Of a DNA stretch of 64,000 nucleotides, positions 14,996 to 64,000 are shown one piece after another. The stretch spans positions 868,001 to 932,000 of the forward strand of contig NZ_JAHLME010000003.1 in the NCBI RefSeq assembly GCF_018919395.1, read 5' to 3'. This DNA is from Geomonas azotofigens. GTDB taxonomy: Bacteria > Desulfobacterota > Desulfuromonadia > Geobacterales > Geobacteraceae. The notes under the pieces are model-generated. The model was given only the letters and a program-made list of their open reading frames with translations, had not been told where the DNA came from and did not search any database. The position numbers and the translations under genes were made by a program. How positions within the stretch are numbered: the first letter of the stretch is position 1; each line of letters starts with the position of its first letter.

Positions 14996-15334
14996 ATGTT
15001 GAAAAAAATTGCCATCCTCGCCTGTCTCGTCTCGTTCGCCCCGGCCGCGGCCGGAGCCCAGGACGTGGCGCTCATGGTGAACCAGCAGCCCGCGCCGCAG
15101 ACCGAGGCGCAGCGGAGCTTGAACCTGATGCCGCGCGAAGAGCGCTCCGCGACTCTGGTCGCGGCGAACGACGTCCAGGGGACGGCACCCGCTCAGGAGG
15201 AACGCCCGAAAAAAAGCCACACCGGCTTGACCTTCAAGGAGTTCTGCGACGTGCACTTCGGCGAGTATCGCTGGGTGTACTGGGTGGGCGCGGTCGCGGC
15301 AATCGTTGCCATCCACGTGGTAGCCGCCGACTAA
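14996..15334 (+). CDS. Small exported protein with C-terminal membrane helix, unknown
   Basis: 112 residues. A signal peptide (about 1-21, ending AGAQD) is followed by a Gln/Ala/Glu-rich linker (about 25-75). The C-terminal segment has one hydrophobic helix (WVYWVGAVAAIVAIHVVA, about 93-110). AAAGGAGG seven bases before the ATG gives strong support that it is translated. No family recognised. It may be anchored in the inner membrane by the C-terminal helix. It stands alone between oppositely oriented genes. Confidence 0.75.
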   Translation: MLKKIAILACLVSFAPAAAGAQDVALMVNQQPAPQTEAQRSLNLMPREERSATLVAANDVQGTAPAQEERPKKSHTGLTFKEFCDVHFGEYRWVYWVGAVAAIVAIHVVAAD

Positions 15335-15340
15335 AACAGC

Positions 15341-15373
15341 GCGGGCGGCGGGTGCCATCGCCCCGCCGCCCGC
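15341..15373 (+). terminator. GC-rich hairpin after the small exported protein
   Basis: The 12-base perfect stem GCGGGCGGCGGG / CCCGCCGCCCGC with a 9-base loop starts 6 bases after the stop codon. The tail is only CTTCTTCTTCC, so it is a strong hairpin with a weak T tract. Confidence 0.6.
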
Positions 15374-15451
15374 GCCCATGCTTCTTCTTCCCCTTCCCTT
15401 GCGCCCCCCGCATCCTTCCTTACCGCGCCGCAGGCGCCTCGCCTTGATTAC

Positions 15452-32569: not shown

Positions 32570-32572
32570 CGG

Positions 32573-36076: not shown

Positions 36077-36092
36077 GACGCCTCGCAACGGC

Positions 36093-37676: not shown

Positions 37677-38071
37677 TGAGCCCCCTCGTAGCGCGACAGG
37701 ATCCCCTTGAGCCGGTCCACCGTCATCGGCTTGTAGATGTAATCCACCACGCCGAGTTGCCAGCACTGCTCCTGGTCGGTCTCGTTGTCCGACGAGGTGA
37801 GGATGGCGACGGCCAACTCGTGGAGCTTGTCGCTGGTTCTGATCCCCCGCAACAGGTCGAGGCCGCTGATCTTGGGGAGTTTCAGGTCCAGGAGCACCAA
37901 CCTGATGTGGCGGTAGGTGTCGTCACGTTCCATGCGCCTGAGCAATTCGTCGGCCTCCTCCCCGTCCCGCGCGGTCAGGATCTCGTGGCCGCACGCCTTG
38001 CCGATGATGCGGCTGGCCAGGAAAAGGTCGTCCGGATTGTCTTCCACGAGCAGGATGTACGAGGGCGCCAT
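37673..38071 (-). CDS. Single-domain response regulator, Rcp1-like
   Basis: 132 residues, one receiver domain. The acidic pocket is VEDNPDD at 9-15, the acceptor D62 (LLDLKLPKISG), Thr in ILTSS and Lys in YIYKPM. The long beta4-alpha4 loop and LKLPKISGLDLL are typical of Rcp1-type regulators that pair with phytochrome-like kinases. GGAG seven bases before the ATG supports the start. It has no output domain. It overlaps the following receiver-kinase gene by four bases. Confidence 0.92.
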   Translation of the reverse strand: MAPSYILLVEDNPDDLFLASRIIGKACGHEILTARDGEEADELLRRMERDDTYRHIRLVLLDLKLPKISGLDLLRGIRTSDKLHELAVAILTSSDNETDQEQCWQLGVVDYIYKPMTVDRLKGILSRYEGAQ

Positions 38072-38226
38072 GGCATACTCCGCGCCGCCGGCCGTGTGCC
38101 GTCGGCAAAAAAAAGCCGAGCGTTTCAACAGTTGCTGCGTCTGCTCGGCCGCCTGCCTGTGCCAGTGTTAAAACGTGTGACGTGGCACATTAACAATCGC
38201 TTATTCTAGCCTGCTCCACCACCTTG

Positions 38227-40500: not shown

Positions 40501-40518
40501 TCCGGCTCCGGGTCGGTG

Positions 40519-42561: not shown

Positions 42562-42623
42562 GTCTCCCTCTCGGGGCGATTCTGGACGGTTCGTTGTCGG
42601 TGCGAGGCAACCTTGCCAATGGA

Positions 42624-43109
42624 TCAGATGGTGCTGCCGGATTGCTCCTGGGCCGATGGCTGGGTCGCGAGCTCCGGGGCGACGTTCAGACCAAGCCAGT
42701 ACTGCACCAGGTTCTGCATCATCACCAGCAGCGCGTTGAAGGAGTTGGGCTTGACCAGGAAGGAGTTGCAGCCGAGCTCGTAGGCCCGGTTCAGGTCCGC
42801 CGGCGGGACCGGCGAGGTGAGCACCACCACCGGCAGACGCTTCAGCGCCGGCTGGTCCCTAAGCCACGAGAGCAGTCCCACCCCCGAGATGTGCGGCAGT
42901 TTCAGGTCGAGCAGCATCAGGACCGGCATCGGATAGCACTCCCGGTCCTGGAACGCTCCCCTGCCGCTCAGGTAGCCGATGGCTTCCTCGCCGTCCCTGG
43001 CGCTTTGCACCGGGGTTATCACCCCCACGCGCTGCAGGGCGAGCTTGGTGAAATGGGCCTGGTCCTGGTCGCTGTCGACCACGAGTATGGTATGGTGCAC
43101 GTAGCTCAT
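42624..43109 (-). CDS. Single-domain response regulator, Rcp1-like
   Basis: 161 residues. Receiver with D12/D14 acidic pocket, acceptor D68 (LLDLKLPHISG) and K120, followed by a Gln/Ser-rich tail of about 20 residues. It has no output domain. It lies 14 bases after the kinase at 43124-44266 and is its likely first phosphate acceptor; the next gene downstream is the PilZ-acyltransferase protein. It resembles the receiver at 37673-38071 in sequence and in its place next to a kinase. Confidence 0.93.
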   Translation of the reverse strand: MSYVHHTILVVDSDQDQAHFTKLALQRVGVITPVQSARDGEEAIGYLSGRGAFQDRECYPMPVLMLLDLKLPHISGVGLLSWLRDQPALKRLPVVVLTSPVPPADLNRAYELGCNSFLVKPNSFNALLVMMQNLVQYWLGLNVAPELATQPSAQEQSGSTI

Positions 43110-43123
43110 GGTTTCCCCCGGCG

Positions 43124-44266
43124 CTACTCCGCTCTCCTGAGTTCGATCCAGAACCGGCTCCCCTCCCCTTCCTTCGATTCCAATCCGATCCGCCCGCCAA
43201 GGCGCTGCACGGCCTTGCGCACGATGGCGAGGCCTACCCCTGTCCCTGGATAGCTTTCCATGCTGTGCAGGCGTTCGAAGATCTTGAAGATCCGTTCCTG
43301 GTGCTGCGGCGCGATGCCGATGCCGTTGTCCTGCACGTAGAGACGGCAGTATTCGTGCGACTCGTCGGCCCAGATGCGCACCAGGGGGACCACCCCCTGG
43401 GGGACGAACTTGATGCCGTTGGTCATCAGGTTGAGGACCACCTGGACCAGCACCGTGGGGTGCCCGATCACCATGGGGAGGTCGCTGGAGATCTCGAGAC
43501 GATACGGATTGCCCCCGCCGACGAGTTCAAGTTGCTGCGCAGCGTCGCGCACCACCTGGTCCAGGCTTACCGGCTCGAGGGGGATCTCCTGCCTGCTGAC
43601 CCGGCTGTAGGCGAGCAGGTCCTGGATGAGCCGGTCCATCCCCTGGGCCGCTGTCTTGATGCGCACCAGGTACGCGTTTCGCTCCGCCGGGGTCTGCAGT
43701 TCGTCGTCCAGCAGGATCTCGGCGAAGGCCTGCATGGCGCGGATCGGTGCCCGCAGGTCGTGGGAGACGGAGAAGGCAAAGGAATCGAGTTCCTTGTTGA
43801 TCTCCTCCAGCTGCGCGGTGCGCTCGGCAACGCGGCGGTCCATGGTGGCGGCTTCCTTTTCCAATTTCTCCATAAGTTCCGCGATTTCAGCTTCTTCCTC
43901 GCGGTACCGGGTGCAGTCGCTGATGACCATGCCGATGTGGTTGTCGGTAAGGGCGAAGATGCGGACCCGGTAATACGACCCCTCTCTTGATACCTCGCCC
44001 AACTCCAGGGAGCCTCCGAAGGCCGCCAGCCGGTGGCAATACTCCCTGAAACGGTCCGCCTCGAACCAGCCGGGGAAACAGTCGGTCACCAGGCAGTTCT
44101 TGAAGTTGAAGGACTTGCAACGGCACAGCTTGACGGCAGCCGGGTTCATTTCGATTACCTGCGGGGAGGCGTCAGGGGTGTGCACGTCCAGGCGCAGGAT
44201 GGCAAGCGCTTCCCGCATGTTGGTGAACATCAATCGGTAGAGCTGCTCGGCCTGTTCCATTTCCAT
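43124..44266 (-). CDS. PAS-histidine kinase
   Basis: 380 residues from the ATG at 44266 with AGGAGAG at 7-base spacing; the upstream continuation of the frame has no such site. One PAS-like domain (about 5-125, with Cys residues CRCKSFNFKNC that might bind a cofactor) precedes a coiled coil. HisKA has H169 in SFSVSHDLRAPIRAMQAF, and the HATPase has VQDNGIGI, FKIFERLH and GTGVGLAIVRKAVQRLGG. It is the first gene of the minus-strand signalling run and directly precedes a single-domain receiver. It is cytoplasmic. Confidence 0.92.
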   Translation of the reverse strand: MEMEQAEQLYRLMFTNMREALAILRLDVHTPDASPQVIEMNPAAVKLCRCKSFNFKNCLVTDCFPGWFEADRFREYCHRLAAFGGSLELGEVSREGSYYRVRIFALTDNHIGMVISDCTRYREEEAEIAELMEKLEKEAATMDRRVAERTAQLEEINKELDSFAFSVSHDLRAPIRAMQAFAEILLDDELQTPAERNAYLVRIKTAAQGMDRLIQDLLAYSRVSRQEIPLEPVSLDQVVRDAAQQLELVGGGNPYRLEISSDLPMVIGHPTVLVQVVLNLMTNGIKFVPQGVVPLVRIWADESHEYCRLYVQDNGIGIAPQHQERIFKIFERLHSMESYPGTGVGLAIVRKAVQRLGGRIGLESKEGEGSRFWIELRRAE

Positions 44267-44393
44267 GGCGGGCTCTCCTTGGCAAATGCAGAAGAGTATA
44301 GCGAAGTGAGATTGGATTGCACTAATGTTTTGCGGTGTTGGGCGACGTGCGGAAGGGATGTGCATCTTGCGGGGGGAGAGAACGCAGCACTGA

Positions 44394-44954
44394 CTACTTC
44401 TTTGAAACGTACGGGTTACCCTCCAGGTAGAAGCGGAGCGGCTTCGCGGCCCAGATACCCGAGTAGGCGACGCCGATGCGTGGCCTCGCCACAACCTGGC
44501 GCGGCTGTTCCTCGTCAAGCGCGGCGATGAAGAGATCGGCGCTCTCCAGGTCGTGCCCGTTGTGGCGCAGGTCGATACCCATGGCGCGGCAGAGCAGTCC
44601 CGGTCCCGAGGTTCGATCGCTCAGGTTCCGCACCGGTTCCAGCGCGCGCACAAGAACTGCACAGGCGTTTCCTTCCCGCTCGGTCACGACGTTGAGGCAG
44701 AAATGGATTCCGTAGATGAGATAGACGTAGGCGAAACCGGGCGGGCCGAAGAGGATGCGGGTGCGCGGCGTCAGTCCCCTGGAGGAGTGCGCCGCAAGGT
44801 CCGTCTCGCCGAGATACGCCTCCACCTCGACGATCTTCCCCACCCTCTCCTCTCCGGCCACGTCATGAACCAGGTAGGTGCCCAGGAGATCATGTGCCAC
44901 GTCGACGGTGTCGCGGTCGTAGAATGCGCGTGGCAGCGGGCTCAGGCCAGTCAC
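44394..44954 (-). CDS. Alkyladenine (3-methyladenine) DNA glycosylase, AAG/MPG family
   Basis: 186 residues starting with GTG after AGGAG at 6-base spacing. The AAG signature is present: the catalytic Glu region VEVEAYLGETDLAAHSSRG, the nearby TPRTRILFGPPGFAYVYLIYG, and LNVVTEREG. It excises alkylated and deaminated purines. The length matches bacterial members. It lies nine bases after the DUF4136-type lipoprotein on the same strand, so the two may be cotranscribed although their functions are unrelated. Confidence 0.94.
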   Translation of the reverse strand: MTGLSPLPRAFYDRDTVDVAHDLLGTYLVHDVAGEERVGKIVEVEAYLGETDLAAHSSRGLTPRTRILFGPPGFAYVYLIYGIHFCLNVVTEREGNACAVLVRALEPVRNLSDRTSGPGLLCRAMGIDLRHNGHDLESADLFIAALDEEQPRQVVARPRIGVAYSGIWAAKPLRFYLEGNPYVSKK

Positions 44955-50232: not shown

Positions 50233-50886
50233 GTGCGCAACCTTTTCACCATATTCACCCTGGCGCTTTGCACCATGGCAGGGGGCGGGCCGGTGCTCGC
50301 AGCGGGTGCCGCCAAGCCAGCCGACCATGGCACCATCGTTGCCTTCGGCGACAGCCTCACCGCCGGTCTCGGCGTGCCGGAAGCGGACGCCTACCCGGCC
50401 CAGTTGCAGCGCAAACTGCGGCAGGCCGGCTACCAGTGGACCGTGATCAACGCCGGCATCAGCGGCGAGACCAGCACCGGTGCCCTCGCCCGCGTCGAGT
50501 GGGTCATGAAGCTCAAGCCCGACATCGTCATCCTGGAAACCGGCGCCAATGACGGCCTGCGCGGCCAGGAGCCGGAACTGACCTACCGCAACATCGACAA
50601 AATCGTAACCATGCTGCAGGCAAAAGGGGTGGTCGTCGTTCTCGCCGGCATGAAAATGCTGAAGAACCTCGGCCCCGCCTACACCGGCAAGTTCGCCGCC
50701 ATCTATCCCCGCGTCGCCAAGGAACGCAAAGTGCTCCTGATCCCCTTCTTCCTGGACAAGGTCGCCGGCAAGGAAGGCCTCAATTTGTCTGACGGTGTAC
50801 ACCCGACCGGCAAGGGGTACGCCATCGTCACCGAAAACGTTTACACCTACCTTCTTAAGGCGATCCAACAAAAAGGGGGACACTGA
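50233..50886 (+). CDS. tesA: TesA-like SGNH esterase / thioesterase / lysophospholipase
   Basis: 217 residues beginning with GTG after AAAAGGAG. The signal peptide runs to about residue 24-26, so the enzyme is periplasmic. SGNH blocks are complete: GDSL with Ser41, GISGET with Gly, GANDG with Asn106, and SDGVHP with Asp187 and His190. E. coli TesA hydrolyses acyl-CoA, lysophospholipids and aryl esters. It follows the ABC genes on the same strand and precedes the PUFA-type synthase. Release or editing of acyl chains is a reasonable but untested role. Confidence 0.93.
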   Translation: MRNLFTIFTLALCTMAGGGPVLAAGAAKPADHGTIVAFGDSLTAGLGVPEADAYPAQLQRKLRQAGYQWTVINAGISGETSTGALARVEWVMKLKPDIVILETGANDGLRGQEPELTYRNIDKIVTMLQAKGVVVVLAGMKMLKNLGPAYTGKFAAIYPRVAKERKVLLIPFFLDKVAGKEGLNLSDGVHPTGKGYAIVTENVYTYLLKAIQQKGGH

Positions 50887-51031: not shown

Positions 51032-52753
51032 ATGATGCGTGGACCTGCCTTCTCCATGCCCGAGCTTTGTCCTTCTGCCGAACCAGTACCATACGCCATC
51101 ACAACTCCGCTGCAATTCGTGGCAACAGGAGAATCCCGTTTGGATCTTTTTTCGCTTCAGGGTGAGCCTGGCGCTCGCTCTGCCCAATCCGAGAGTCCCG
51201 AGCCTGCCGTTATGAGTCTGAGAGACGCGCTCCGCGTCGTGCGCCACCCCCTGTACCTGGTGCGGCGGGACGGCGAACTGGTGCCGCAGCTTGGCGGCGC
51301 CGGCAGCGTCAATTCCTGCGTGGGCTACGCCCCGGCCTGCCTCCCCGAGAACCTGGGCGATCCCTCTTTCTGCCGCGAAATCGGCATCCGCTACCCGTAC
51401 GTGGGCGGCTCCATGGCCAAGGGGATCAGTTCCGCCGCCATGGCAGAGGAACTGGGGCGCGCCGGAATGCTCGGCTTTTTCGGCGCAGCCGGCCTTCCGA
51501 TCACCACGGTGTCCGATACCGCGGACCGCCTCAAGCAGTCCCTGGGCGACATCCCCTACGGCTTCAACCTGATCCACTCGCCGCACGAGCCGGAACTGGA
51601 AAAGGAACTGGCCGAACTCTATATCCGCAAGGGCGTGCGCATCATCGAGGCCTCCGCGTTCCTGGCCCTCACCCTCCCCCTGGTGCGCTACCGCCTGCAC
51701 GGCATCAAGCGCGCCGCCGACGGCAGCATCGTCACGCCCAACCGCATCATCGCCAAGGTCTCCCGAGAGGAACTGGCGGCGAAGTTCTTCGCCCCGGCCC
51801 CGGAGAAGCTCTTGCGCGCCCTAGTGGAGAACGGCTCCATCACCGCCGAACAGGCTGAACTTGCCGCGCACGTGCCGCTGGCGCAGGACGTCACCGCCGA
51901 GGCGGATTCCGGCGGTCACACCGACAACCGCCCGGCCATGGCCCTGTTCCCGACCATCAACTCGCTCGCGGCACGACTGGAGCGCCAGTACGGCTACGAC
52001 TGCAAGCTTCGCGTCGGCCTGGGGGGCGGCGTTTCCACCCCTGCCTCCGCAGCCGCCGCCTTCGCCATGGGCGCCGCCTACATCATGACCGGCTCGGTAA
52101 ACCAGGCCTGCGTCGAGTCGGGCACCTCGGACACCGTGCGCGCCATGCTGGCCGGTACCCGCCAGGCCGACGTCACCATGGCCCCCGCCGCCGACATGTT
52201 CGAGATGGGTGTCACCGTGCAGGTCTTGAAGCGCGGCACCATGTTCCCGATGCGCGCGGCCAAGCTGTACGAGCTCTACCGCGCCTACGGCAGCATGGAC
52301 GAGATCCCGGCCGCGGAGCGCGAAAAGCTGGAAAAGACCATGTTCCTCGCGCCCCTGGAAGAGATCTGGCGCGGGACCCGGGAGTACTTCCTCAAGCGCG
52401 ACCCCTCCCAAGTGGAGCGCAGCGAGCGCGACCCGAAACACAAGATGGCGCTGGTCTTCCGGTGGTACCTCGGCATGGGGGCGCACTGGGCCAAGGACGG
52501 CGTCGAAAGCCGCAAGATGGATTACCAGGTTTGGTGCGGTCCCGCCATGGGCGCCTTCAACGAATGGGCCGCCGGCTCCTTCCTGGAGGCTGCCGCCGAG
52601 CGCAAGATCGTCACGGTCGCGCTCAACATCCTGCACGGCGCGGCACATCTGACCCGCGCCAACTTCCTGCGTAGCCAGGGCATCGAGCTGCGCCTGGAAG
52701 ACATCGCACCGCAACCCCTCGAAATCGCACACATCAAGGAGTACCTTTGTTGA
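51032..52753 (+). CDS. pfaD: PfaD: enoyl reductase subunit of the PUFA-type synthase
   Basis: 573 residues, close to the PfaD/Pfa1 length. A family-specific N-terminal part (RVVRHPLYLVRRDG) leads into an FMN-dependent TIM barrel of the nitropropane-dioxygenase type (MAKGISSAAMAEELGRAGMLGFFGAAG, then GLGGGVSTPASAAAAFAMGA with ITGSVNQ-like MTGSVNQA). The C-terminal part has the conserved KMALVFRWYLGMGAHWAKDG block and the family end LNILHGAAHLTRANFLRSQG. It saturates selected enoyl intermediates. The start is weakly defined: no good ribosome site precedes the ATG, and the first 60 residues are poorly conserved in appearance. It overlaps pfaA by seven bases, and being first in the operon matches the myxobacterial order. 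Confidence 0.95.
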   Translation: MMRGPAFSMPELCPSAEPVPYAITTPLQFVATGESRLDLFSLQGEPGARSAQSESPEPAVMSLRDALRVVRHPLYLVRRDGELVPQLGGAGSVNSCVGYAPACLPENLGDPSFCREIGIRYPYVGGSMAKGISSAAMAEELGRAGMLGFFGAAGLPITTVSDTADRLKQSLGDIPYGFNLIHSPHEPELEKELAELYIRKGVRIIEASAFLALTLPLVRYRLHGIKRAADGSIVTPNRIIAKVSREELAAKFFAPAPEKLLRALVENGSITAEQAELAAHVPLAQDVTAEADSGGHTDNRPAMALFPTINSLAARLERQYGYDCKLRVGLGGGVSTPASAAAAFAMGAAYIMTGSVNQACVESGTSDTVRAMLAGTRQADVTMAPAADMFEMGVTVQVLKRGTMFPMRAAKLYELYRAYGSMDEIPAAEREKLEKTMFLAPLEEIWRGTREYFLKRDPSQVERSERDPKHKMALVFRWYLGMGAHWAKDGVESRKMDYQVWCGPAMGAFNEWAAGSFLEAAAERKIVTVALNILHGAAHLTRANFLRSQGIELRLEDIAPQPLEIAHIKEYLC

Positions 52754-55700
52754 AAACTGATGATCTGAAACCTGCCGTCTCCAGCAACGGAACTCAGCTT
52801 GCCATCATCGGCATCGGTTGCCTCTTCCCGCAGGCCGCGGATAAAAACGCCTACTGGGCCAACATCAAAGACGGGGTCGACGCCATCACGGAAGTCCCCT
52901 CAACCCACTGGCCGTTGGACGCGTATTACGACGAGGATCAGAAGAGCCCGGACCGCACCTACGGCCGCCGCGGCGGCTTCCTGTCGCCGGTCGACTTCAA
53001 CCCGATGGAATTCAACATCCCGCCCAACGTGCTGGAGGCGATCGACACCTCGCAGTTGCTGGGACTGGTGGCCGCCGGGCAGGCCCTCAAGGACGCCGGC
53101 TACGGCCCGGACCGCGCCTTCGACAAGAGCAACGTCTCCGTCATCCTGGGGGTCACCGGTACCCTGGAGCTGGTGATACCGCTGGGGGCGCGCCTCGGGC
53201 ATCCGGTCTGGCGTTCCGCGCTCAAGGACGCCGGTGTCGACGAAGCCACCGCCAAGGACGTGGTCGAGCGTATCTCCGACTCCTACGTCCCATGGCAGGA
53301 AAACTCCTTCCCCGGCCTTTTAGGCAACGTGGTGGCGGGCAGGATCAGCAAGCAGTACGACCTGGGCGGCACCAACTGCGTGGTCGACGCCGCCTGCGCG
53401 AGCTCCTTCAGCGCGCTGCACCTGGCCTCTATGGAGCTCATGTCGGGCAAATCGGACATCGTCGTGAGCGGTGGCATCGACACCTTCAACGATATCTTCA
53501 TGTACATGTGCTTTAGCAAGACCCCCGCCCTTTCCCCCACCGGTAACGCCAAGCCGTTCGACGTCTCGGCCGACGGCACCATCCTGGGCGAAGGGCTCGG
53601 CATCGTGGTCTTGAAGCGCCTGGCGGACGCTGAGCGCGACGGCGACCAGATCTACGCGGTAATCCGCGGCATCGGTTCTTCCAGCGACGGCAAAGGGGAC
53701 GCCATCTACGCGCCGAGCTCTGCCGGTCAGAAGAAGGCACTCCTCAACGCCTACAGGAACGCGGACGTCACGCCGGAAACCATCGGCATGCTGGAAGCGC
53801 ACGGCACCGGCACCAAGGTCGGCGACGCCGTCGAAGTGAGCGCGCTGCGCGAGGTGTACGGCAAGGCCGATAACCCGTGGTGCGCCCTCGGCTCGGTGAA
53901 GTCACAGATCGGCCACACCAAGGCCGCGGCGGGTTCCGCCGGCCTCATCAAGGCCGCGCTCGCCCTGCACCACAAGGTGATCCCGCCTACCATCAAGGTG
54001 CAGACCCCGCAGCAGACGGTTGTGGGCGACAGTTCCCCCTTCTATCTCCCGACAGCCAAGCGTCCCTGGTTTCCCCGTCCCGATGCGCCGCGCCGCGCCG
54101 CGGTCAGCGCCTTCGGTTTCGGCGGCTCCAACTTCCACGTGGTCCTCGAGGAATATCAGCCCAAAAAGCAGGGCGTGGACTGGGACGGCAACACGCAGAT
54201 CCTGGCCTTCTCCGGTGCCGACGGCGCCACCCTGGCCGCCAAGCTCGACTCGGTTCCCGGCGACAGCGCCTGGGGCGCCCTGCGCGACCTGGCGCTTAAC
54301 TCCCGCGCCTCCTTCGACGCGAAGGCGCCCTGCCGTCTCGCGCTGGTCGTGGAGCACGGCAAGACCAACCTCGCCTCCCTGGTGAAGAACGCCCGCGCCA
54401 TGCTGGACAAGAACGCGAAATCCGCCTGGCAGACACCCGACGGCGCCTACTTTGCCTGCGGCGGCGCGCCCGGCAAGCTCGGCATGCTGTTCCCCGGCCA
54501 GGGCTCGCAATACACCGGGATGCTCAACGACCTCGCCTGCACGTTCCCGCAGGTGCTCGATGCCGTTGTCGCTGCCAACGAGGGGTTCACCACCGCTGAC
54601 GGCAAGATGCTTTCCGATTTGATTTACCCCCCCTCCTCCTTCGATGAGGCAGGCCGCGCCAAGCAGGAAGAGGAACTGCGCGCCACCCAGGTCGCCCAGC
54701 CCGCCATCGGCGCCACCAGCCTCGGTGCACTGCGCGTGCTGCGCGATTTCGGCGTCGAACCCGACGCGGTCGCCGGTCACAGCTACGGTGAACTCACCGC
54801 CCTGTGCGCCGCCGGAAGGCTCGACGAAAGCGCCCTGCACGAACTGTCCCGCCTGCGCGGCAAGCTGATGGGCGCCGGCTCCGGTGACAAGGGGAGCATG
54901 TTGGCCGTCTCCGCGCCGCTGGAAAAGATCGCCGAGGTCGTCGCCGCCGAGAAGCTCGACCTGGTCATCGCCAACAAGAACGCCCCCACCCAGGCCGTTC
55001 TTTCCGGCGCCAGCGCCGAGATCAAGCGCGCCGTGACCGTCTTCAAAGGACTCGGCCTTACCTGCAAGGAGTTGCCGGTTGCCGCCGCCTTCCATAGCGC
55101 GCTGGTCGCCGACGCCGCCAGGCCGTTCCTGGCCGCGCTGGAAAAGATCGACATGCCGCAGGCGAAGATCCCGGTCTACGCCAACACCACCGCCGCCGTC
55201 TACCCGGCCGACGCGACCGCTGCCAAGGCACAGCTTGCCGCCCAACTCGCCAAGCCGGTCGAGTTCGTCGCCGAGATCGAGGCTATGTACGCCGCCGGGA
55301 TCACCAACTTCGTCGAAGTGGGCCCGGGCAACCGGCTGACGGGCCTCGCGCAGGCCATCCTCGGCAATCGTCCCCACGCAGCCTTCGCCCTCGATGCCTC
55401 CTCCGGCAAGCGTGGCGGGGTCGCCGACCTGGCCCGCACCCTGGCGCAGCTTGCCGTGCTCGGCTACGGCGTGAACATGGCGCTCTGGGACGAGGGGCAT
55501 ACCCCCGCCCCGGCACCGACCGGCAAGAAGCCCGCGCTGACCATCCCGCTCTGCGGCGCCAACTACGTGAAAGCCAAGCCGAAGAAGCCGCCGGTCCAGC
55601 CGAAACCCGTCATGGTGGCGGCACCGCAGGCTCCGGTCGCTACGGCAGCAGCATCCGCTGCTCCGGCTCAAGCCGCAGCCGCCGTACCGCAGCAAGCCGG

Positions 55701-58700
55701 CTACCAGAACGCCGCACCCGTAGCGCCTGCCTATCAGCCGCAGCCTGTCGCTCAGCCGGCCTCTCATGGCGCGTTGAACGAGTCCCTGCGCCTGGCCCGT
55801 GAAGGAATGGCTGTTCTGCAGAAAATGCAGGAGGATACCGCGCTGCTGCACCGCCGCTTCCTCGAAGGGCAGGAAGCCGCAGCGAAGACCTTCCAGACAC
55901 TCCTCGAACAGCAGCAACGGCTCATCATGGGCGCACCGATTGCTCCGGCCACCTACGCGACGCCGGCTGCAGTTGCACCGGCCGCGCCCGTCGCCGTCCC
56001 GCAGGCGCCTGCCTACGTGGCCCCGGTTGCCGCTCCGGTTGCCGCCCCGGTTGCCGCTGCTGTTGCCGTTGCCGCTCCGGCTGTTGCCATTGCAGCTGCG
56101 TCGCCTGTCGTGGCCGCGCCCGCTGTTTCGGCACCTGCCGCTCCGAAAGGCGCCGACGCCAGTCAGATTACCCAGACCCTCTTGACCGTGATCTCCGAGA
56201 AGACCGGCTATCCCATTGAGATGCTTGAACTGGACATGGGCATGGATTCCGATCTCGGCATCGATTCCATTAAGCGCGTCGAGATCCTCTCCACCCTGCA
56301 GGAGCGCCTTCCGGGCTCTCCGGTGATTGGACCTGAGCACCTCGGCACCCTGCGCACCTTGGGGGACATCGCCGGGCACCTCGCCGCCGGTACCGTATCG
56401 ACCGTCGCTGCCAGCGCTGCCGCGCCCGTTGCCGCGCCGCAAGCGGGTGCCGCCGCCAGCCAGGTAACCGAAACCCTCCTCGCCGTGGTCAGCGAGAAGA
56501 CCGGCTACCCGGCTGAGATGCTGGAACTCGAGATGGGCATGGATTCCGACCTCGGCATCGATTCCATCAAGCGGGTAGAGATCCTCTCCACGCTGCAGGA
56601 GCGCCTGCCCGGCTCCCCGGCCATCGGCCCCGAGCACCTGGGCACCCTGCGCACGCTGGGCGACATCGCGGGCCATCTCGCCGCTGGTGCGGTTGCCGTT
56701 GCCGCAGTAGCACCCGTTGCTGTCGCCGTTGTCGCCCCCAACGCTGGCGTCGATGCCGCACAGGTGACAGAAACTCTCCTCGCCGTCGTGAGCGAGAAGA
56801 CTGGCTACCCTGTGGAAATGCTCGAACTGGAAATGGGGATGGACTCGGACCTCGGCATCGACTCCATCAAGCGGGTCGAAATCCTGTCCACACTGCAGGA
56901 GCGCCTTCCCGGTTCCCCGGCTATCGGCCCCGAACACCTGGGCACTTTACGTACCCTGGGCGATATCGCCGGGCACCTCGCCGCTGGCACGGCTTCCGTA
57001 GCAGCAGCAGCGCCGGTAGCAGCACCTCAAGCTGCGGCAGCGGCACCTGCCGGTGCAGACGTCGCCGCCGTCCTGCTTGAGGTAGTGAGCGAGAAGACGG
57101 GCTATCCGACCGAGATGCTTGAACTGACCATGGGCATGGACTCCGACCTCGGCATCGACTCCATCAAGCGCGTCGAGATCCTGTCCACGCTGCAGGAGCG
57201 CCTCCCCGGCTCGCCGACCATCGGGCCGGAACACCTGGGCACCCTGCGCACCCTGGGCGACATCGCCGGCTTCCTCGGTGCCGGACCTGCCGCTGCTACG
57301 GTTGCTGCTGTTGCCGCCCCGACTGCGCCTGCTGCACCCGTTGCGGCCCCAACCGCCGCTGTCGATCACGCCGCCGTCTGCGAAGCCCTGCTCGAAGTCG
57401 TCAGCGACAAGACCGGCTACCCGGCCGAGATGCTGGAACTGACCATGGGCATGGACTCAGACCTGGGCATCGACTCGATCAAGCGGGTCGAGATCCTTTC
57501 CGCCCTGCAGGAGCGCCTCCCGGCCTGCCCGGCCATCGGCCCGGAACACCTGGGGACGCTACGGACCTTGGGCGACATCGCGAACTTCCTCGCTGGTCCT
57601 GCACAACCGGCACAACCGGCTGCTTCCGCACCGGTCGCCCCTGCCGCTGTCGAGGTTGCTGCTCCTGTCTCTACCGATGCAGCGCCTGCCGTTGCCGCTG
57701 CCGCTCCGGTAGAGACAACCGCTCACCCGATCCAGCGCAGCTCCATGATCCCGGTGCTGCTCGGAGACAGCGACGACGACGCCGTCACCCTCGCCAACGA
57801 CGGCGAGATCTGGGTCACCGACGACGGCTCCGCCTTTGCCGCGGAACTGTGCGGCATTCTGCTCGAGCACGGCTGCTCGGTGCGCAAGGTGAACGCGGCA
57901 CAGGCACAACAGATCGCACCGGCCGGGAAGCTCTCCGGCCTGGTCATCTGCGCGCCCGTGGCCGGCACCGACGACCTGTTCCTGGAAAACGCCTTCCTGC
58001 TCCTCAAGAACGCCGCAACGGCCTTGATCGAGTCCGGACGCGCCGACGGCGCCGTGTGCGTCACGGTTTCCCGCCTGGACGGCGCCTTCGGTTTCGGCTC
58101 TACCAAGACGCTGAAGGATCCCCTTTCCGGCGCCCTGGCCGGTCTCACCAAGACCGCCGCCTTCGAATGGCCGGAAGTCACCTGCAAGGCGATCGACCTG
58201 GGCGAATTCGCCCATCCCGCAGCCGCCGCAGGCGCCGTGGCCGTCGAAATGCTGCGGAGCGGACCGGTCGAAGTCGGCCTCACCCCGGAAGGTCGTTTCG
58301 GCCTGCAGACTGCCGTGCTTCCGGCCGCATCGGCCCCGACCGATCCGGTCCTGGAGCAGGGTGACGTCGTGGTCATCACCGGCGGCGGCCGAGGTGTGAC
58401 CGCCGTTTCGGCGCTGGCGCTGGCGAAGGAATATCATCCGTTCCTGGTGCTTCTCGGCCGCAGCCCGGAGCCGCAGGAGGAACCCGCCTGGCTCGCCGGC
58501 ATCGCAGACGAAGGTGAGATCAAGCGCGCCATCATGCAGCACGCCACCGGCAAGCTCCATCCCCGCGAAATCGAGGAGCGTTACCGCTCCGTGGTTGCCG
58601 GGCGCGAACTGCGCGAGACGCTGACCGCCATCGCCGCCACCGGCGCCGAGGCCATCTACCGTTCGGTCGACATCCGTGACCAGAGCGCGATGGAGCTCCT

Positions 58701-60102
58701 GCTCGGCGAGGTGCGTCGCGCCCATGGCCCGATCCGCGGCGTGGTGCACGGCGCCGGCGTCCTGGCCGACCGCCTCATCGTGGACAAGACCCCGGAGCAG
58801 TTCGAACAGGTCTACAGCACCAAGGTGCACGGCCTGCGCGCCCTGCTGCACGCCACCCGCAACGACGACTTGAAGTTCGTCGCCCTCTTCTCCTCCTCCA
58901 CGGGGCGTTTCGGCCGCGTGGGCCAGGTGGATTACGCCGTTGCCAACGAGGTACTCAACAAGACGGCCCAGGCCGAGGCGCGCCGCCGCACCGGCTGCCG
59001 CTGCGTCAGCATCAACTGGGGTCCGTGGGACGGCGGCATGGTCACGCCCGCGCTGAAGAAGGTCTTCGCTGCCGAGGGAATCGGCGTCATAGGCCTCGCC
59101 GAGGGTGGCGAATTCCTGGCGCGCGAAATCTCCGCCGCCGATGCGCCGGTAGAGATCGTCGCCATCGCGCAGCTTCCTGAACAGGCAAGCGCCGCCGCGC
59201 CCGCTGCCGGCAAGCCGCAGAGCCTGTCCGAGGCGTTCTCGCTTACGCTCACCGTTCCGGAATACCCCTTCCTGCGCTCTCACGTGCTGGACGGCAAGGC
59301 GGTGCTCCCCATGGCGGTCATCGTCGAGTGGCTCGCCCACGGCGCGCTGCACGGCAACCCCGGTTTCCGCTTCCACGGTTTCAACGACCTGCGCATCTGC
59401 AAGGGGGTGGTCTTCGAGGACAACACCCCGTTCAAGTTGAACGTGATGGCGGGACGTGCGGAAAAACGCGAGTCGTTCTGGCTTGTTCCGGTTGAAATGT
59501 GCAGCCCGGGCGTCAACGGCAAGACCATCCTGCACGCCCGTGCCGAGATCGTGCTGGCAACCAAGCATCCCGAGGGGATCCGCTCCATCAAGGAAATCCC
59601 GAGCACCCCGTACGCCCCGTACGACGGCATGATCTACAACAACGAGCGCCTGTTCCACGGGCCGGACCTGCACGGCATCGAGCAGGTGGACGGCTGCTCC
59701 GCCAAGGGAATCGCCGCCTCGGTCAAGGGTGCCCCGGCGCCCGCCAAATGGATCAGGCGCCCCCTGAGGAGTTCCTGGCTCACCGACCCGCTGGTCATAG
59801 ACAGCGCTTTCCAGATGATGATCCTCTGGAGCTTCGAGCGTTTCGGCGCGGGTTCGCTCCCCTGCTTCGCCGGGCGCTACCGCCAGTTCCAGGAGTCCTT
59901 CCCGCGCGAGGGGGTCCAGGTGGTCATCCGCGTCACCTCGGAGAGCAAGCACGGCGCCAGCGCCGACATGGAGTTCCTCGACCGCAGCAGCGGCAAACTG
60001 GTGGCGCGCCTCGAAGGGTACGAGTGCGTCATCGATCCTTCCCTGAAACAGGCCTTCCAGCGCAACAAGCTTAGGACCGTAACTGTTGTGGGGGCGGCAT
60101 AG
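52747..60102 (+). CDS. pfaA: PfaA: KS-MAT-5xACP-KR-DH subunit of the PUFA-type synthase
   Basis: 2451 residues. It starts at TTG (52747 or 52750), overlapping the pfaD stop, with AAGGAG inside pfaD. Domains: ketosynthase (about 15-460, Cys217 in DAACASS); malonyl acyltransferase (about 575-880, Ser679 in GHSYGE); a coiled-coil linker (about 1015-1060); five acyl carrier domains with phosphopantetheine Ser at 1174, 1273, 1373, 1472 and 1577 in LGIDSIK, joined by Ala/Pro linkers; ketoreductase (about 1850-2130, TGGGRG at 1878, Tyr2063 in YAVAN); and a C-terminal polyketide-type dehydratase with HxxxGxxxxP at 2179 and DxxxQ at 2352. It builds the acyl chain iteratively from malonyl units. The dehydratase looks complete. 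Confidence 0.97.
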   Translation: MLKTDDLKPAVSSNGTQLAIIGIGCLFPQAADKNAYWANIKDGVDAITEVPSTHWPLDAYYDEDQKSPDRTYGRRGGFLSPVDFNPMEFNIPPNVLEAIDTSQLLGLVAAGQALKDAGYGPDRAFDKSNVSVILGVTGTLELVIPLGARLGHPVWRSALKDAGVDEATAKDVVERISDSYVPWQENSFPGLLGNVVAGRISKQYDLGGTNCVVDAACASSFSALHLASMELMSGKSDIVVSGGIDTFNDIFMYMCFSKTPALSPTGNAKPFDVSADGTILGEGLGIVVLKRLADAERDGDQIYAVIRGIGSSSDGKGDAIYAPSSAGQKKALLNAYRNADVTPETIGMLEAHGTGTKVGDAVEVSALREVYGKADNPWCALGSVKSQIGHTKAAAGSAGLIKAALALHHKVIPPTIKVQTPQQTVVGDSSPFYLPTAKRPWFPRPDAPRRAAVSAFGFGGSNFHVVLEEYQPKKQGVDWDGNTQILAFSGADGATLAAKLDSVPGDSAWGALRDLALNSRASFDAKAPCRLALVVEHGKTNLASLVKNARAMLDKNAKSAWQTPDGAYFACGGAPGKLGMLFPGQGSQYTGMLNDLACTFPQVLDAVVAANEGFTTADGKMLSDLIYPPSSFDEAGRAKQEEELRATQVAQPAIGATSLGALRVLRDFGVEPDAVAGHSYGELTALCAAGRLDESALHELSRLRGKLMGAGSGDKGSMLAVSAPLEKIAEVVAAEKLDLVIANKNAPTQAVLSGASAEIKRAVTVFKGLGLTCKELPVAAAFHSALVADAARPFLAALEKIDMPQAKIPVYANTTAAVYPADATAAKAQLAAQLAKPVEFVAEIEAMYAAGITNFVEVGPGNRLTGLAQAILGNRPHAAFALDASSGKRGGVADLARTLAQLAVLGYGVNMALWDEGHTPAPAPTGKKPALTIPLCGANYVKAKPKKPPVQPKPVMVAAPQAPVATAAASAAPAQAAAAVPQQAGYQNAAPVAPAYQPQPVAQPASHGALNESLRLAREGMAVLQKMQEDTALLHRRFLEGQEAAAKTFQTLLEQQQRLIMGAPIAPATYATPAAVAPAAPVAVPQAPAYVAPVAAPVAAPVAAAVAVAAPAVAIAAASPVVAAPAVSAPAAPKGADASQITQTLLTVISEKTGYPIEMLELDMGMDSDLGIDSIKRVEILSTLQERLPGSPVIGPEHLGTLRTLGDIAGHLAAGTVSTVAASAAAPVAAPQAGAAASQVTETLLAVVSEKTGYPAEMLELEMGMDSDLGIDSIKRVEILSTLQERLPGSPAIGPEHLGTLRTLGDIAGHLAAGAVAVAAVAPVAVAVVAPNAGVDAAQVTETLLAVVSEKTGYPVEMLELEMGMDSDLGIDSIKRVEILSTLQERLPGSPAIGPEHLGTLRTLGDIAGHLAAGTASVAAAAPVAAPQAAAAAPAGADVAAVLLEVVSEKTGYPTEMLELTMGMDSDLGIDSIKRVEILSTLQERLPGSPTIGPEHLGTLRTLGDIAGFLGAGPAAATVAAVAAPTAPAAPVAAPTAAVDHAAVCEALLEVVSDKTGYPAEMLELTMGMDSDLGIDSIKRVEILSALQERLPACPAIGPEHLGTLRTLGDIANFLAGPAQPAQPAASAPVAPAAVEVAAPVSTDAAPAVAAAAPVETTAHPIQRSSMIPVLLGDSDDDAVTLANDGEIWVTDDGSAFAAELCGILLEHGCSVRKVNAAQAQQIAPAGKLSGLVICAPVAGTDDLFLENAFLLLKNAATALIESGRADGAVCVTVSRLDGAFGFGSTKTLKDPLSGALAGLTKTAAFEWPEVTCKAIDLGEFAHPAAAAGAVAVEMLRSGPVEVGLTPEGRFGLQTAVLPAASAPTDPVLEQGDVVVITGGGRGVTAVSALALAKEYHPFLVLLGRSPEPQEEPAWLAGIADEGEIKRAIMQHATGKLHPREIEERYRSVVAGRELRETLTAIAATGAEAIYRSVDIRDQSAMELLLGEVRRAHGPIRGVVHGAGVLADRLIVDKTPEQFEQVYSTKVHGLRALLHATRNDDLKFVALFSSSTGRFGRVGQVDYAVANEVLNKTAQAEARRRTGCRCVSINWGPWDGGMVTPALKKVFAAEGIGVIGLAEGGEFLAREISAADAPVEIVAIAQLPEQASAAAPAAGKPQSLSEAFSLTLTVPEYPFLRSHVLDGKAVLPMAVIVEWLAHGALHGNPGFRFHGFNDLRICKGVVFEDNTPFKLNVMAGRAEKRESFWLVPVEMCSPGVNGKTILHARAEIVLATKHPEGIRSIKEIPSTPYAPYDGMIYNNERLFHGPDLHGIEQVDGCSAKGIAASVKGAPAPAKWIRRPLRSSWLTDPLVIDSAFQMMILWSFERFGAGSLPCFAGRYRQFQESFPREGVQVVIRVTSESKHGASADMEFLDRSSGKLVARLEGYECVIDPSLKQAFQRNKLRTVTVVGAA
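56155..57595 (+). repeat. Five tandem acyl carrier protein repeats within pfaA
   Basis: Five units of about 300 bases (99, 100, 99 and 105 codons between active serines) encode nearly identical MGMDSDLGIDSIKRVEIL cores. Variation is mostly in the Ala/Pro linkers and at third codon positions. Such repeats can gain or lose units by recombination; carrier number is known to affect product yield in PUFA synthases. Confidence 0.95.
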
Positions 60103-60104
60103 GC

Positions 60105-63100
60105 ATGAAGCAGCAGTCGCCTTCCGTGGCAATCGTCGGCCTGGGCGGGATCTTTCCCGACGCGCCGGAACTGACAACTTTTTGGGAAAATATCCGTAAC
60201 GCCAAGAGCGCCGCGCGCGAGGTACCGGCCGGACGCTGGGCCCTCGCGGCTGACGCTGCCTTCCATCCCGAGGCGGGCAAGCCGGACCACGTCTACTCCA
60301 AGCGTGGCTGTTTCATCGACAGTCTCCCTCCCCTGTCCTCGCTTTCCGGGCTGCACATCGACCCGAAGCTTGCCGACGGGCTCGATCCCGCTTGCCACCT
60401 GCTGCTGCACGCCGGCAAGCGCGCCTTCGACAGCGCGGTCACCGCGAAACTGGACCGCTCCCGCGTCGGCGTCATCATCGGCAACCTGGCCCTCCCCAGC
60501 GAAAAATCCGCCGAGTTCTCCCGCGCCCTCTTGGGGCGCACCTTCGAGGAAAAGCTTTTAGGGCACGCGGGCAACGACCCGATCCCCAACCCGCTCAACC
60601 GTTACGTGGCGGGGCTCCCGGCCGGGCTTCTGTCCGCCGCGCTTGGCCTGGGCGGAGGGTGCAGCACCCTGGACGCCGCCTGCGCCTCCTCGCTCTACGC
60701 CATCAAGCTCGCCTGCGACGAACTTCTTTCCGGCCGCGCCGACGCCATGCTGACGGGTGGCCTGTCCCGTCCTGATCCGCTCTACACCCAGATGGGCTTC
60801 GCCCAGCTGCGCGCCCTGTCCCGGCGCGGCATCTGCTCCCCCTTCGACGCCTCCGGCGACGGCCTGGTGGTGGGCGAAGGCGCCGGCATCTTCGTGCTCA
60901 AGCGCCTGGACGACGCCATCGCCCAGGGCGATCGCATCTATGGCGTGATCAAGGGGATTGGCCTCTCCAACGACGTGGGCGGCAGCCTCCTGGCGCCCAT
61001 GGCCGACGGGCAACTGCGCGCCATGCGCGCCGCCTACGAGAAGGCCGGCTGGCAGCCGCAGGACGTGGACCTGATCGAGTGTCATGCCACGGGTACCCCG
61101 GTCGGCGACGCCACCGAGGTCGGCAGCCTCAGGGAACTCTGGGGCGACGCGTCAGGCAAGGGATGCGTCATCGGCTCGGTAAAGTCCAACATCGGGCATC
61201 TCCTCACCGCCGCCGGTTCCGCCGCCTTGACCAAGGTTCTCCTGGCCATGGCCGAGGAAACCCTGCCGCCGACCGCGAACTTCAAACAGGCGCCGGAGAA
61301 CTTCCGACTTGATGAGAGCCCGTTCCGCGTTCTGCAGGGGGCGACCCCGTGGCAGCGCCGTGCCGACGGCGTCCCCCGCCGTGCCGCCGTCTCCGCCTTC
61401 GGTTTCGGCGGCATCAACGCGCACCTGCTGGTCGAGGAATGGCTCCCCACTGGTACGAACGCCGTTGCCGCAGAGCCGCCGAAAAAGGGTGGTCCGGTGG
61501 CGGTGGTCGGCCTCGACGCCCGCTTCGGCAAGTGGCAGGATCTGAAATCCTTCCAGGCTAGGGCCCTCGGCGGTGACGCCGACGCCAAGACCTCGAACCC
61601 CAAAGACTGGTGGGGTGCCGAGCAAAGCGCCTGGTTCGCCACCGAAAAGCTGAAGGACACCCCCTTCTCCGGCTACTACCTGGACGAGTTCGCCCAACCG
61701 ACCGACCAGTTCCGCATCCCGCCCAAAGAGCTGGAGGAGATGCTGCCGCAGCAACTCCTCATGCTTCAGTCCGCCGCGGCCGCCATCAAGGACGCGGGGA
61801 TGGACCGCGGCGACAACCTGCGCGCCGGCGTCTTTGTCGGTATCGCACTTGACTTGAACAGTACCAACTTCGCCTTCCGCTGGACCATCGCGGCGAAGGC
61901 TGAGGCATGGGCGCGCCAGCTCGGCCTGCAGCTCTCCCCGGAGGAACTGGAGCGGTGGATTGAACAACTGCGCGACCAGGCCGGCCCTGCACTCACCGCG
62001 AATCGGACCATGGGCGCCCTCGGCAGCGTGGTCGCCAGCCGGGTGGCGCGTGAATTCCGCTGCGGCGGCCCCAGCTTCACCATGTCCAGCGAGGAAAGCT
62101 CGGGCCTGCGCGCGCTGGAAACCGCCGTGCGCCAGCTGCAGTCCAACGAAATCGACCGCGCCATCGTGGGCGCCGTGGACTTGGCCGGCGATTTCAGGGC
62201 GGTCATCGGCCAGCACTTGAACCGTCCCTACTCCGGCTTTGGCAGTGCCACCCCCTTCGACCAGTCCGCCGACGGCACCGTGGTCGGCGAAGGTGCCGCT
62301 ACCGTGATCCTGAAGCGCCTGGAAGATGCCGAGCGTGACGGCGACCGGATCTATGCCGTCATCGGCGGCATCGGCAGCGCAAGCGGCGAAGTCATGCTCC
62401 CCGGCGTCCCCGCCTACCGTCACGCGCTAGAACGTGCCTACGGCGAGGCGGATGTCGCACCCGCAAGCGTCGGTCTCATCGAGGCCCACGGCAGCGGCAA
62501 CGCGGCCGAAGACCGGATGGAAGCCGCCGCCCTTACTGAGTTCTTCGACGAACCGGGCCCCACGGCACAACCGAGACGTATCCCGGTCGCCAGCGTGAAG
62601 GCCGATGTCGGTCACACCGGCGCAGCTTCCGGTCTCGCCTCGCTGGTGCGCGGCTGCCTGGCGCTGTACCAGGAGATCATCCCTGGAACCCGTGCCGGCG
62701 AGCGACCCGTCAGCCAACTCTCCGGCAACGGCGCACTCTTTCTCCCCAACGGGTCGCGCTACTGGCTGAGAAACCGCAGCGAAGGCGCACGCCATGCCGG
62801 TGTCAGCGTCTTCGGCGTGGACGGCAGCGTAAGCCACGTCGTGCTGCAGGGCTACGACAACGTGCCCGAGCGGGCCGCTATCGAGCGCGTGGCACCGCTT
62901 GCCGGCTGGGACGAGTTCCTGTTCAGCGTCACCGGCGCAGATCGCCAGGAGCTCGCTGAAGGCATCAGGCAGTTGCGGGAGACAGCCGAGAAAAGGCCGG
63001 CACCCGATATGGCCACCCTTTCCCGGCGCGTCTGCAAGGAAAGCAGCGCTTCCGGCGCACCTTTGGCGGTATCCCTGGTGGCCCGCAGCGCCGACGAGCT

Positions 63101-64000
63101 CGTTTCCCTCTGCCAGCAGGGAGAGCGGATCCTCCGTTCCGACGCGGCCTACGCGGAGTCGGTGCTGCACCCGTCCCAGCGCGACCGCCTCTTCTTCAAC
63201 GCCAAACCGATCGGCAAAAACGGCAAGATCGGCTTCGTCTACCCCGGCTCCGGCAATCATTTCGCGGGCATGGGGATGGAACTTTCCGCCCGGTGGCCGG
63301 AGGTGTATCGCCGCCAGGACGCGGAGAACCTCTACCTGCGCGAGCAGTTCCAGCCGGAGCAGTTCTGGAACGGCGCGCCCATCGACAGCGTGCACGAGAA
63401 CCATCTCGCCGTGATCTTCGGGCAGGTGGCCACCGGATGCGCCGTCACCGACGTGGTGCAGCGCTTCGGGATCAAGCCGAGCGCAGTGATCAGCTACAGT
63501 CTGGGCGAATCCGCCGGGCTCTTCGCCACCCGCACCTGGACCGAGCGCGACCTGATGCTGACCCGCATGAAGGCCTCCACCCTCTTCACCCGCGACCTGG
63601 CCGGCGAATGCCGCGCCGCCCGCGAGGCCTGGGGCGAGCCGGACGGCAAAGAGGTCAACTGGAGCATCGGCGTCGTGGATGCGCCCGCGCGCGAGGTGCG
63701 GCGTGCCCTCAAGAAGACCAGCCGCGTCTACCTGCTCATCGTCAACACGCCGGACGAATGCGTCATCGGCGGCGACGTGAAGTGGGTGAAGCACCTGGTA
63801 GCCATGCTCGACTGCCGCTTCTTCCCGCTGCAGGGGGTGACCACCGTGCATTGCGAGGTGGCGCGCCAGGTGGCCAACGCCTACCGCGACCTGCATGTCT
63901 TCAATACCAACCCGCCGGCCGGCGTGACCTTCTACAGCGGCGCCGCCGGGAGCGCCTACCAGGTGAACCGCCGCAGCGCGGCCGAGTCGATCCTGGCCCA
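60105..64000 (+). CDS. KS-CLF-AT subunit of the PUFA-type synthase (3' end outside window)
   Basis: The frame opens two bases after pfaA and is still open at the window end, with at least 1298 codons. Domains seen: an active ketosynthase (about 1-450, Cys193 in DAACASS, His in ECHATGTPVGD, and SNIGH); a second ketosynthase-like domain (about 465-900) where the Cys position is Glu663 (MSSEESS), i.e. a chain-length factor; and an acyltransferase (from about 1040, VYPGSGN, Ser1132 in YSLGES). This combines the KS-CLF of marine PfaC with the acyltransferase of PfaB in one chain, as in the myxobacterial Pfa3 and thraustochytrid subunit B types. Dehydratase domains are expected downstream but cannot be seen. 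GGGGGCGGC before the ATG is a weak ribosome site; coupling to pfaA is likely. Confidence 0.93.
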   Translation, partial: MKQQSPSVAIVGLGGIFPDAPELTTFWENIRNAKSAAREVPAGRWALAADAAFHPEAGKPDHVYSKRGCFIDSLPPLSSLSGLHIDPKLADGLDPACHLLLHAGKRAFDSAVTAKLDRSRVGVIIGNLALPSEKSAEFSRALLGRTFEEKLLGHAGNDPIPNPLNRYVAGLPAGLLSAALGLGGGCSTLDAACASSLYAIKLACDELLSGRADAMLTGGLSRPDPLYTQMGFAQLRALSRRGICSPFDASGDGLVVGEGAGIFVLKRLDDAIAQGDRIYGVIKGIGLSNDVGGSLLAPMADGQLRAMRAAYEKAGWQPQDVDLIECHATGTPVGDATEVGSLRELWGDASGKGCVIGSVKSNIGHLLTAAGSAALTKVLLAMAEETLPPTANFKQAPENFRLDESPFRVLQGATPWQRRADGVPRRAAVSAFGFGGINAHLLVEEWLPTGTNAVAAEPPKKGGPVAVVGLDARFGKWQDLKSFQARALGGDADAKTSNPKDWWGAEQSAWFATEKLKDTPFSGYYLDEFAQPTDQFRIPPKELEEMLPQQLLMLQSAAAAIKDAGMDRGDNLRAGVFVGIALDLNSTNFAFRWTIAAKAEAWARQLGLQLSPEELERWIEQLRDQAGPALTANRTMGALGSVVASRVAREFRCGGPSFTMSSEESSGLRALETAVRQLQSNEIDRAIVGAVDLAGDFRAVIGQHLNRPYSGFGSATPFDQSADGTVVGEGAATVILKRLEDAERDGDRIYAVIGGIGSASGEVMLPGVPAYRHALERAYGEADVAPASVGLIEAHGSGNAAEDRMEAAALTEFFDEPGPTAQPRRIPVASVKADVGHTGAASGLASLVRGCLALYQEIIPGTRAGERPVSQLSGNGALFLPNGSRYWLRNRSEGARHAGVSVFGVDGSVSHVVLQGYDNVPERAAIERVAPLAGWDEFLFSVTGADRQELAEGIRQLRETAEKRPAPDMATLSRRVCKESSASGAPLAVSLVARSADELVSLCQQGERILRSDAAYAESVLHPSQRDRLFFNAKPIGKNGKIGFVYPGSGNHFAGMGMELSARWPEVYRRQDAENLYLREQFQPEQFWNGAPIDSVHENHLAVIFGQVATGCAVTDVVQRFGIKPSAVISYSLGESAGLFATRTWTERDLMLTRMKASTLFTRDLAGECRAAREAWGEPDGKEVNWSIGVVDAPAREVRRALKKTSRVYLLIVNTPDECVIGGDVKWVKHLVAMLDCRFFPLQGVTTVHCEVARQVANAYRDLHVFNTNPPAGVTFYSGAAGSAYQVNRRSAAESILA

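Follow-up and report, generated by a model that had tools for sequence, protein, structure and literature searches.

Organization of the gene cluster

The window analyzed here is a stretch of 64,000 nucleotides from Geomonas azotofigens, bases 868001-932000 of contig 12 in a 4.97 Mb assembly; other coordinates follow the window numbering, except where a locus or genome is named. Near its 3' end lies a gene cluster for a multidomain synthase of the polyunsaturated fatty acid (PUFA) type, Pfa, followed by oleABCD and a gene for a phosphopantetheinyl transferase (PPTase) (Table 1). The gene run extends beyond position 64000 to approximately 72863. This pfa-ole cluster is real, complete and already published in kind, and the present copy is an ordinary one.

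The initial annotation had read pfaD (enoyl reductase, ER), a KS-MAT-5xACP-KR-DH gene and a KS-CLF-AT gene, in this order, as a single unit encoding a PUFA-type synthase. TIGR02814, TIGR02813 and Pfam agree on this order, and the presence of the three genes is confirmed with scores far beyond chance. The family-model scores of pfaD and the pfaA-like gene are above cut-off and support the PUFA-type assignment. The genes are tightly packed: pfaD and the pfaA-like gene overlap by 7 bases, and the latter is separated from the next gene by 2 bases. The G+C content is 66.3% at 51032-72900 and 62.8% in the window at 1-51000; the increase is slight and not a decisive sign of transfer.

Type I clusters were described in six Geobacter strains, Pelobacter propionicus, Desulfuromonas acetoxidans and Gemmata obscuriglobus and proposed to feed olefin synthesis; joint occurrence of ole genes with such clusters is frequent, and so is linkage between the two (Shulse and Allen, 2011; PMC3098273). 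The window cluster is a further member of this type. In Geobacter bemidjiensis, which makes hentriacontanonaene (C31:9), the genes stand in tandem as pfaD, A, B, C, oleA, B, C, D and pfaE (PMC4882568; C31:9 also in PMC3098273). The Type I cluster of G. bemidjiensis Bem has the same gene order as the window cluster, with pfaE last, and as far as seen differs only in species and sequence; its own sequence is absent from the named loci that were fetched. G. bemidjiensis, now placed in Citrifermentans, is close kin of the window organism; the KS2 of Citrifermentans bremense is 88% identical to that of the window. PMC4882568 is the review by Yoshida et al. (2016).

Table 1. Genes of the pfa-ole run and the gene upstream of it (window numbering)
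Feature	Position	Strand	Location	Evidence
TesA-like GDSL thioesterase/lysophospholipase	50233..50886	+		Pfam Lipase_GDSL_2; NF007819 124 bits, below cut-off 270
pfaD, ER, 573 aa	51032..52753	+		TIGR02814 627 bits, cut-off 449
pfaA-like KS-MAT-5xACP-KR-DH, 2451 aa	52747..60102	+		TIGR02813 1880 bits, cut-off 1010; Pfam domains
pfaBC fusion KS-CLF-AT-FabA-type DH, 2436 aa	60105..67415	+	crosses window end (64000)	Pfam, family models
oleA	67599-68642	+	outside window	
oleB	68639 or 68651 to 69541	+	outside window	motif HDWGG
oleC	69545-71194	+	outside window	NF006754 793 bits, cut-off 478; AMP-ligase loop
oleD	71182-72174	+	outside window	Gly-rich motif, YxxxK
pfaE (PPTase)	~72171-72863	+	outside window	PF01648 match 3' of oleD

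Domains of the Pfa proteins

In the pfaA-like protein, Pfam identifies a KS, an acyl transferase (MAT), five ACP stretches and a KR. Five LGIDSIK serine motifs mark the ACPs, and the MAT motif is GHSYG. The match to PKS_DH_N is weak (20.5 bits, cut-off 27). The DAACAS cysteine is kept in both KS1 and KS2; at the position matching this cysteine the CLF has serine and glutamates, as read by eye.

The KS, CLF, AT and FabA-type domains of the next protein lie in a single 2436-aa frame, the pfaBC fusion typical of Type I. The AT scores 29.5 bits in Pfam, just below the cut-off, and matches a pfaB-family model at 3.3e-22. TIGR02816 (pfaB) reaches 103 bits with a cut-off of 144 and no separate pfaB was found, which sets the cluster outside the marine Types A and B. 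In the marine plan, pfaB is separate and pfaD follows pfaC (PMC3098273), whereas here pfaD comes first and the AT lies within pfaBC, a difference already noted in the initial annotation.

That annotation had also proposed reading past position 64000 for further DH domains and an acylglycerolphosphate acyltransferase (AGPAT). The former do follow, as three FabA Pfam stretches in the C-terminal part of the pfaBC protein. The latter did not appear: the protein terminates just past the last FabA-type DH, its C-terminal 1801 aa gave no AGPAT-type domain in Pfam, and no NHX4D motif was found. Likewise, the cluster proteins scanned with Pfam gave no match to a PlsC-like domain.

Ole proteins and PPTase

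In the PDB, OleA matches best the group 3fk5/3row/3s1z, which are 3-oxoacyl synthase III entries and represent OleA of X. campestris. In an alignment with 3fk5, the Glu, Cys, His and Asn of its active site are all kept. The four Ole enzymes are shared with Xanthomonas, where the usual type II fatty acid synthase supplies the chains (PMC6463001), unlike the Pfa supply proposed here. The window genome contains a single match to OleA at E up to 1e-40 and a single one to OleC at E up to 1e-80. In the PPTase downstream of oleD, the P1b motif FNVSH fits (F/S)NxSH; a nearby PPTase with this motif is a feature of Type I clusters.

Distribution among named relatives

A KS2 alignment scan of named genomes gave 579 relatives, the best 80 of which form the set of named loci, a set skewed to close kin. 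Among the matches listed, the KS2 domains closest to that of the window are those of Geomonas paludis Red736 (96% identical) and C. bremense R1 (88%). The gene 3' of pfaBC could be judged in 62 of the 80 loci; 16 had no match to the pfaBC end and 2 had no room. oleA stands next to the pfaBC end in 49 of the 62, with a gap of 0 to 618 bases in 48 of them and an 80-base overlap in L151. No oleA was found next to pfaBC in the other 13 (L105, L115, L116, L124, L128, L134, L142, L144, L145, L150, L159, L160 and L161). The stretch past pfaBC is only 1350 bases long in L115; L128 has oleBCD without an oleA match, and L150 has oleB only.

The AT serine motif of the window pfaBC is SYSLGE, which is PfaB-like, with a tyrosine before the serine. 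This YS is found in 59 of the 68 named loci with the site aligned, 16 of 19 phylum loci (see below) and both plasmid references. At least three cases with HS instead (L046, L049 and L062) are MAT matches, with no pfaBC in view.

Some loci deviate in composition. In L127 (9794-15580), the PfaC-like protein lacks an AT; oleABCD comes next, and the 10 kb upstream hold neither a pfaA nor a pfaD match. L128, L133 and L136 are likewise free of such matches over 10 kb upstream but retain the AT. L164, the plasmid of Photobacterium GJ3, yielded no pfa cluster.

Gene order and ole genes across the phylum

The phylum sample consists of 297 evenly drawn genomes, including that of the window, in which pfaD was called above its curated cut-off. 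Gene order was determined by tblastn with the window domains in the surroundings of the other 23 pfaD genomes, up to 20 kb or the contig end. pfaD is present in 24 of the 297 genomes. It comes first, with pfaA adjacent, in 16 (own genome included) from 10 families, and after pfaBC in five (G001, G036, G041, G077 and G275) from only two families; G041 is 85% complete. No clear cluster is visible around pfaD in G134, G186 and G295.

oleC, searched in all 297 genomes (E up to 1e-80), was found in 32: 17 of the 24 genomes with pfaD versus 15 of the 273 without it (Fisher p 7e-14, relatedness ignored). The difference between the two gene orders is sharper, with oleC in 16/16 pfaD-first versus 0/5 pfaD-last genomes (Fisher p 4.9e-5; kinship is uncorrected, so the true weight is less). 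oleA was searched in 22 genomes, namely 18 of the 24 with pfaD (16 pfaD-first and no pfaD-last) and four members of the window's class without pfaD. It was found in 17 of the 18, all 16 pfaD-first genomes included and G134 being the exception, and in none of the four. The oleA match is only 34-35% identical in G262 and G241.

Within the class of the window, all eight pfaD-bearing genomes (own included) have both oleA and oleC, and all four without pfaD have neither. The row pfaD-pfaA-pfaBC-oleA is present in all seven other pfaD-bearing class genomes, with oleB, oleC and oleD next in six. In G098 (L047), oleA (15050-16090) lies beside the pfa genes and oleC (G098:C1:1803090) about 270 kb away; oleA thus stays with the synthase although oleC has been relocated. 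Outside the class, pfaD and ole genes are both present but apart in several genomes (G161, G105, G072, G254 and G295).

Other arrangements were also seen. In L058 (G262) and L059 (G241), an oleD-like gene follows pfaD-A-BC, and the oleA match and oleC lie elsewhere; in L059 a DUF459/esterase gene stands between pfaBC and the oleD-like gene. In L051 (8047-10456), pfaA is separated from pfaBC by genes for a membrane protein of the phage-holin-4 type and an exporter of the TauE type.

KS phylogeny

The KS tree has 58 rows: 37 of the 80 named loci, nine phylum loci, the window, two plasmid clusters, Moritella PfaC (6riw) and eight KS1 rows. It was drawn with a midpoint root, and its rows include no myxobacterial PUFA synthases, heterocyst-glycolipid (hgl) or thraustochytrid sequences. 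A split supported at 97/97 places 45 KS2 rows (the window, 37 named loci and seven phylum loci) on one side. On the other side are the KS2 domains of Moritella, Persicobacter, Streptomyces globosus and the pfaD-last L063 and L064, together with all eight KS1 rows. The initial annotation had named grouping with the marine synthases as a result that would speak against it; the window KS2 stands apart from Moritella PfaC, the single marine row. A marine reading was rejected on this tree, the gene order and the lack of a separate pfaB.

The window KS2 pairs with that of G. paludis (100/98) within a 12-row clade (100/100) whose rows carry a Geobacteraceae or Desulfuromonadaceae label or belong to its own order, in line with the KS phylogeny of Type I. 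The Type I paper used the proximal (PfaA) KS; our tree had four KS1 rows from such clusters, none of them from the strains of that paper. The neighbors of the window KS2 are mostly ole-linked rows. pfaD comes last in the Streptomyces plasmid cluster, which can represent the myxobacterial synthases only poorly.

L146, L147 and L149, from metagenome-assembled genomes labelled Bacillota, Planctomycetia and unclassified, carry pfa-ole clusters and share one KS2 clade (100/100), a sign of transfer or wrong binning; the shorter stretch of L147 has no pfaD. No paper combining pfa, ole, Planctomycetes and hydrocarbon was found in a literature search, most subscription papers being outside its reach; with the same limit, none was found on Geomonas with polyunsaturated lipids.

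Discussion

Combining the cluster in the window genome with its published relatives, we consider it very probable that the locus is a complete pfa-ole operon of Type I and that its product is a long-chain olefin with many double bonds, hentriacontanonaene (C31:9) being the most likely candidate. The genes, their order, domains and active-site motifs are observed directly in the window genome, as is the distribution of such clusters. The initial annotation left the product unnamed, either a PUFA or a polyunsaturated precursor of a hydrocarbon formed by head-to-head joining. The second option is supported by oleABCD directly 3' of the synthase, and a product can now be suggested.

By analogy to the relatives, the genes would be co-transcribed and the PPTase PfaE would activate the Pfa proteins. 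A polyunsaturated acyl chain could then be built on the five ACPs, the KS-CLF performing the elongation and the FabA-type DH domains setting the double bonds, without the use of oxygen. OleA would take two chains directly from the ACPs and join them head to head. The resulting beta-keto acid would be reduced by OleD, OleC would close the beta-lactone, and OleB would remove CO2 to give the olefin. With a chain length as in the relatives, two 16:4 chains would yield hentriacontanonaene. Shewanella and Photobacterium clusters (pfaABCDE and oleABCD, Type A; C31:9 in Shewanella) have the same two pathways, coupled via OleA (PMC6463001). For the Shewanella pealeana genes the coupling was demonstrated in E. 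coli, where a strain lacking the acyl-CoA synthetase FadD formed a 31:8 ketone (PMC6463001). The role of such hydrocarbons in strict anaerobes has been called speculative (PMC4882568).

Several observations weigh against this assignment. OleC falls below the olefin-specific NCBIfam cut-offs (689/850 and 686/900 bits), and so does OleD (464/580 and 428/580 bits); the names of three of these four models point to Shewanella or Xanthomonas. For OleC, NF006754 comes first and the two olefin beta-lactone synthetase models follow directly; for OleD, the olefin-specific models take the first two places. The Ole assignment therefore stands on model rank, gene order and OleA. In the phylum sample, pfaD above cut-off is missing from 15 of the 32 genomes with oleC, and oleC from seven of the 24 with pfaD (the five pfaD-last, G134 and G186). 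Among the named loci, L105, L115, L116, L142, L144 and L161 have pfaD and pfaA before pfaBC and no oleA in the 3' stretch. The search there was confined to that stretch, so these six neither support nor refute a rule based on architecture. Photobacterium profundum SS9 has both operons and no detectable hydrocarbon (PMC6463001). Finally, the AT of the window cluster retains its PfaB-like SYSLGE motif, and chain transfer to another acceptor is thus conceivable.

PfaB has been termed a terminal acyltransferase (PMC12895367), and with the YS motif kept in the AT a second, minor product is possible. The synthase may then serve mainly hydrocarbon formation, with a minor PUFA released by the AT or by the TesA-like thioesterase. 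A single Pfa synthase yields both products in S. pealeana, and in S. oneidensis the hydrocarbon is accompanied by <1% EPA (eicosapentaenoic acid) (PMC6463001). We regard such a dual output as rather unlikely for the window cluster, given that the TesA-like gene is adjacent in only 3 of the 80 named loci and that the proteins of the cluster lack a PlsC-like domain in the Pfam scan.

It is much less likely that the synthase makes a free or phospholipid PUFA (EPA, docosahexaenoic acid or arachidonate) as in terrestrial myxobacteria, the ole enzymes using other fatty acids. In the myxobacterial pfa1-pfa2-pfa3 clusters (Type L; Aetherobacter), the ER gene likewise comes first and the AT lies inside the KS-CLF protein (PMC4882568). 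The AT serine motif, the thioesterase gene upstream and the EPA formed alongside hydrocarbon by the one synthase of S. pealeana (PMC6463001) would also fit. However, a C-terminal AGPAT is the most characteristic feature of myxobacterial pfa3 (PMC4882568; AGPAT also in PMC6731297), and the PPTase is encoded elsewhere in the genome (PMC4882568), whereas the window cluster lacks a detectable AGPAT and is followed by the ole genes and pfaE in the same tightly packed run. In addition, pfaD and ole occur together in all eight pfaD-bearing class genomes, and the window KS2 lies among mostly ole-linked rows. Because no AGPAT was found and the ole genes come next, a myxobacterial-type PUFA is set aside as the main product. 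The link to myxobacteria drawn in the initial annotation is not supported; the plan is the one published for G. bemidjiensis, and a gene order resembling that of myxobacteria tells little about the product. A synthase for heterocyst glycolipids or another non-PUFA lipid, suggested by the KS-CLF-AT order of hglC, was rejected as extremely improbable: Type F is described as lacking the PfaC DH/I domains (PMC3098273), a comparison by description only, whereas three FabA stretches are present here and ole genes follow.

Across the phylum, the pfaD-first synthase could be a dedicated hydrocarbon machine, with OleA as its sole normal off-loader and no PUFA passed to phospholipids, and pfaD-last synthases could make PUFAs. 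We put this forward tentatively, with somewhat more doubt than confidence; if true, architecture alone would predict the product class. Only one element, the association of ole genes with pfaD-first order in the phylum sample, lacks a match in the available parts of the cited accounts; it could help annotation.

Neighboring genes

The TesA-like gene ends 145 bases upstream of pfaD. Among the named loci, L082, L083 and L084 also carry such a gene 5' of pfaD, and no match (E up to 1e-6) was found in the 40 phylum stretches L040-L079. In a stretch covering the gap between the two genes (L005, 1100-2100), neither a sigma-70-like promoter nor a terminator-like site was found, which says little on real signals. 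The gene is probably a mere neighbor of the pfa-ole run, and on the adjacency and phylum counts it was set aside as a pathway member.

No 16S rRNA gene match was found in the assembly, and the same search was positive in only 9 of 14 control genomes. Geomonas species are strict anaerobes. On the minus strand of the window, at 30455-44518, lies a series of sensor kinase, PAS, response regulator and GGDEF/EAL genes, which includes a 680-aa frame without a Pfam match (40519-42561) and stands a few kb from the lipid cluster.

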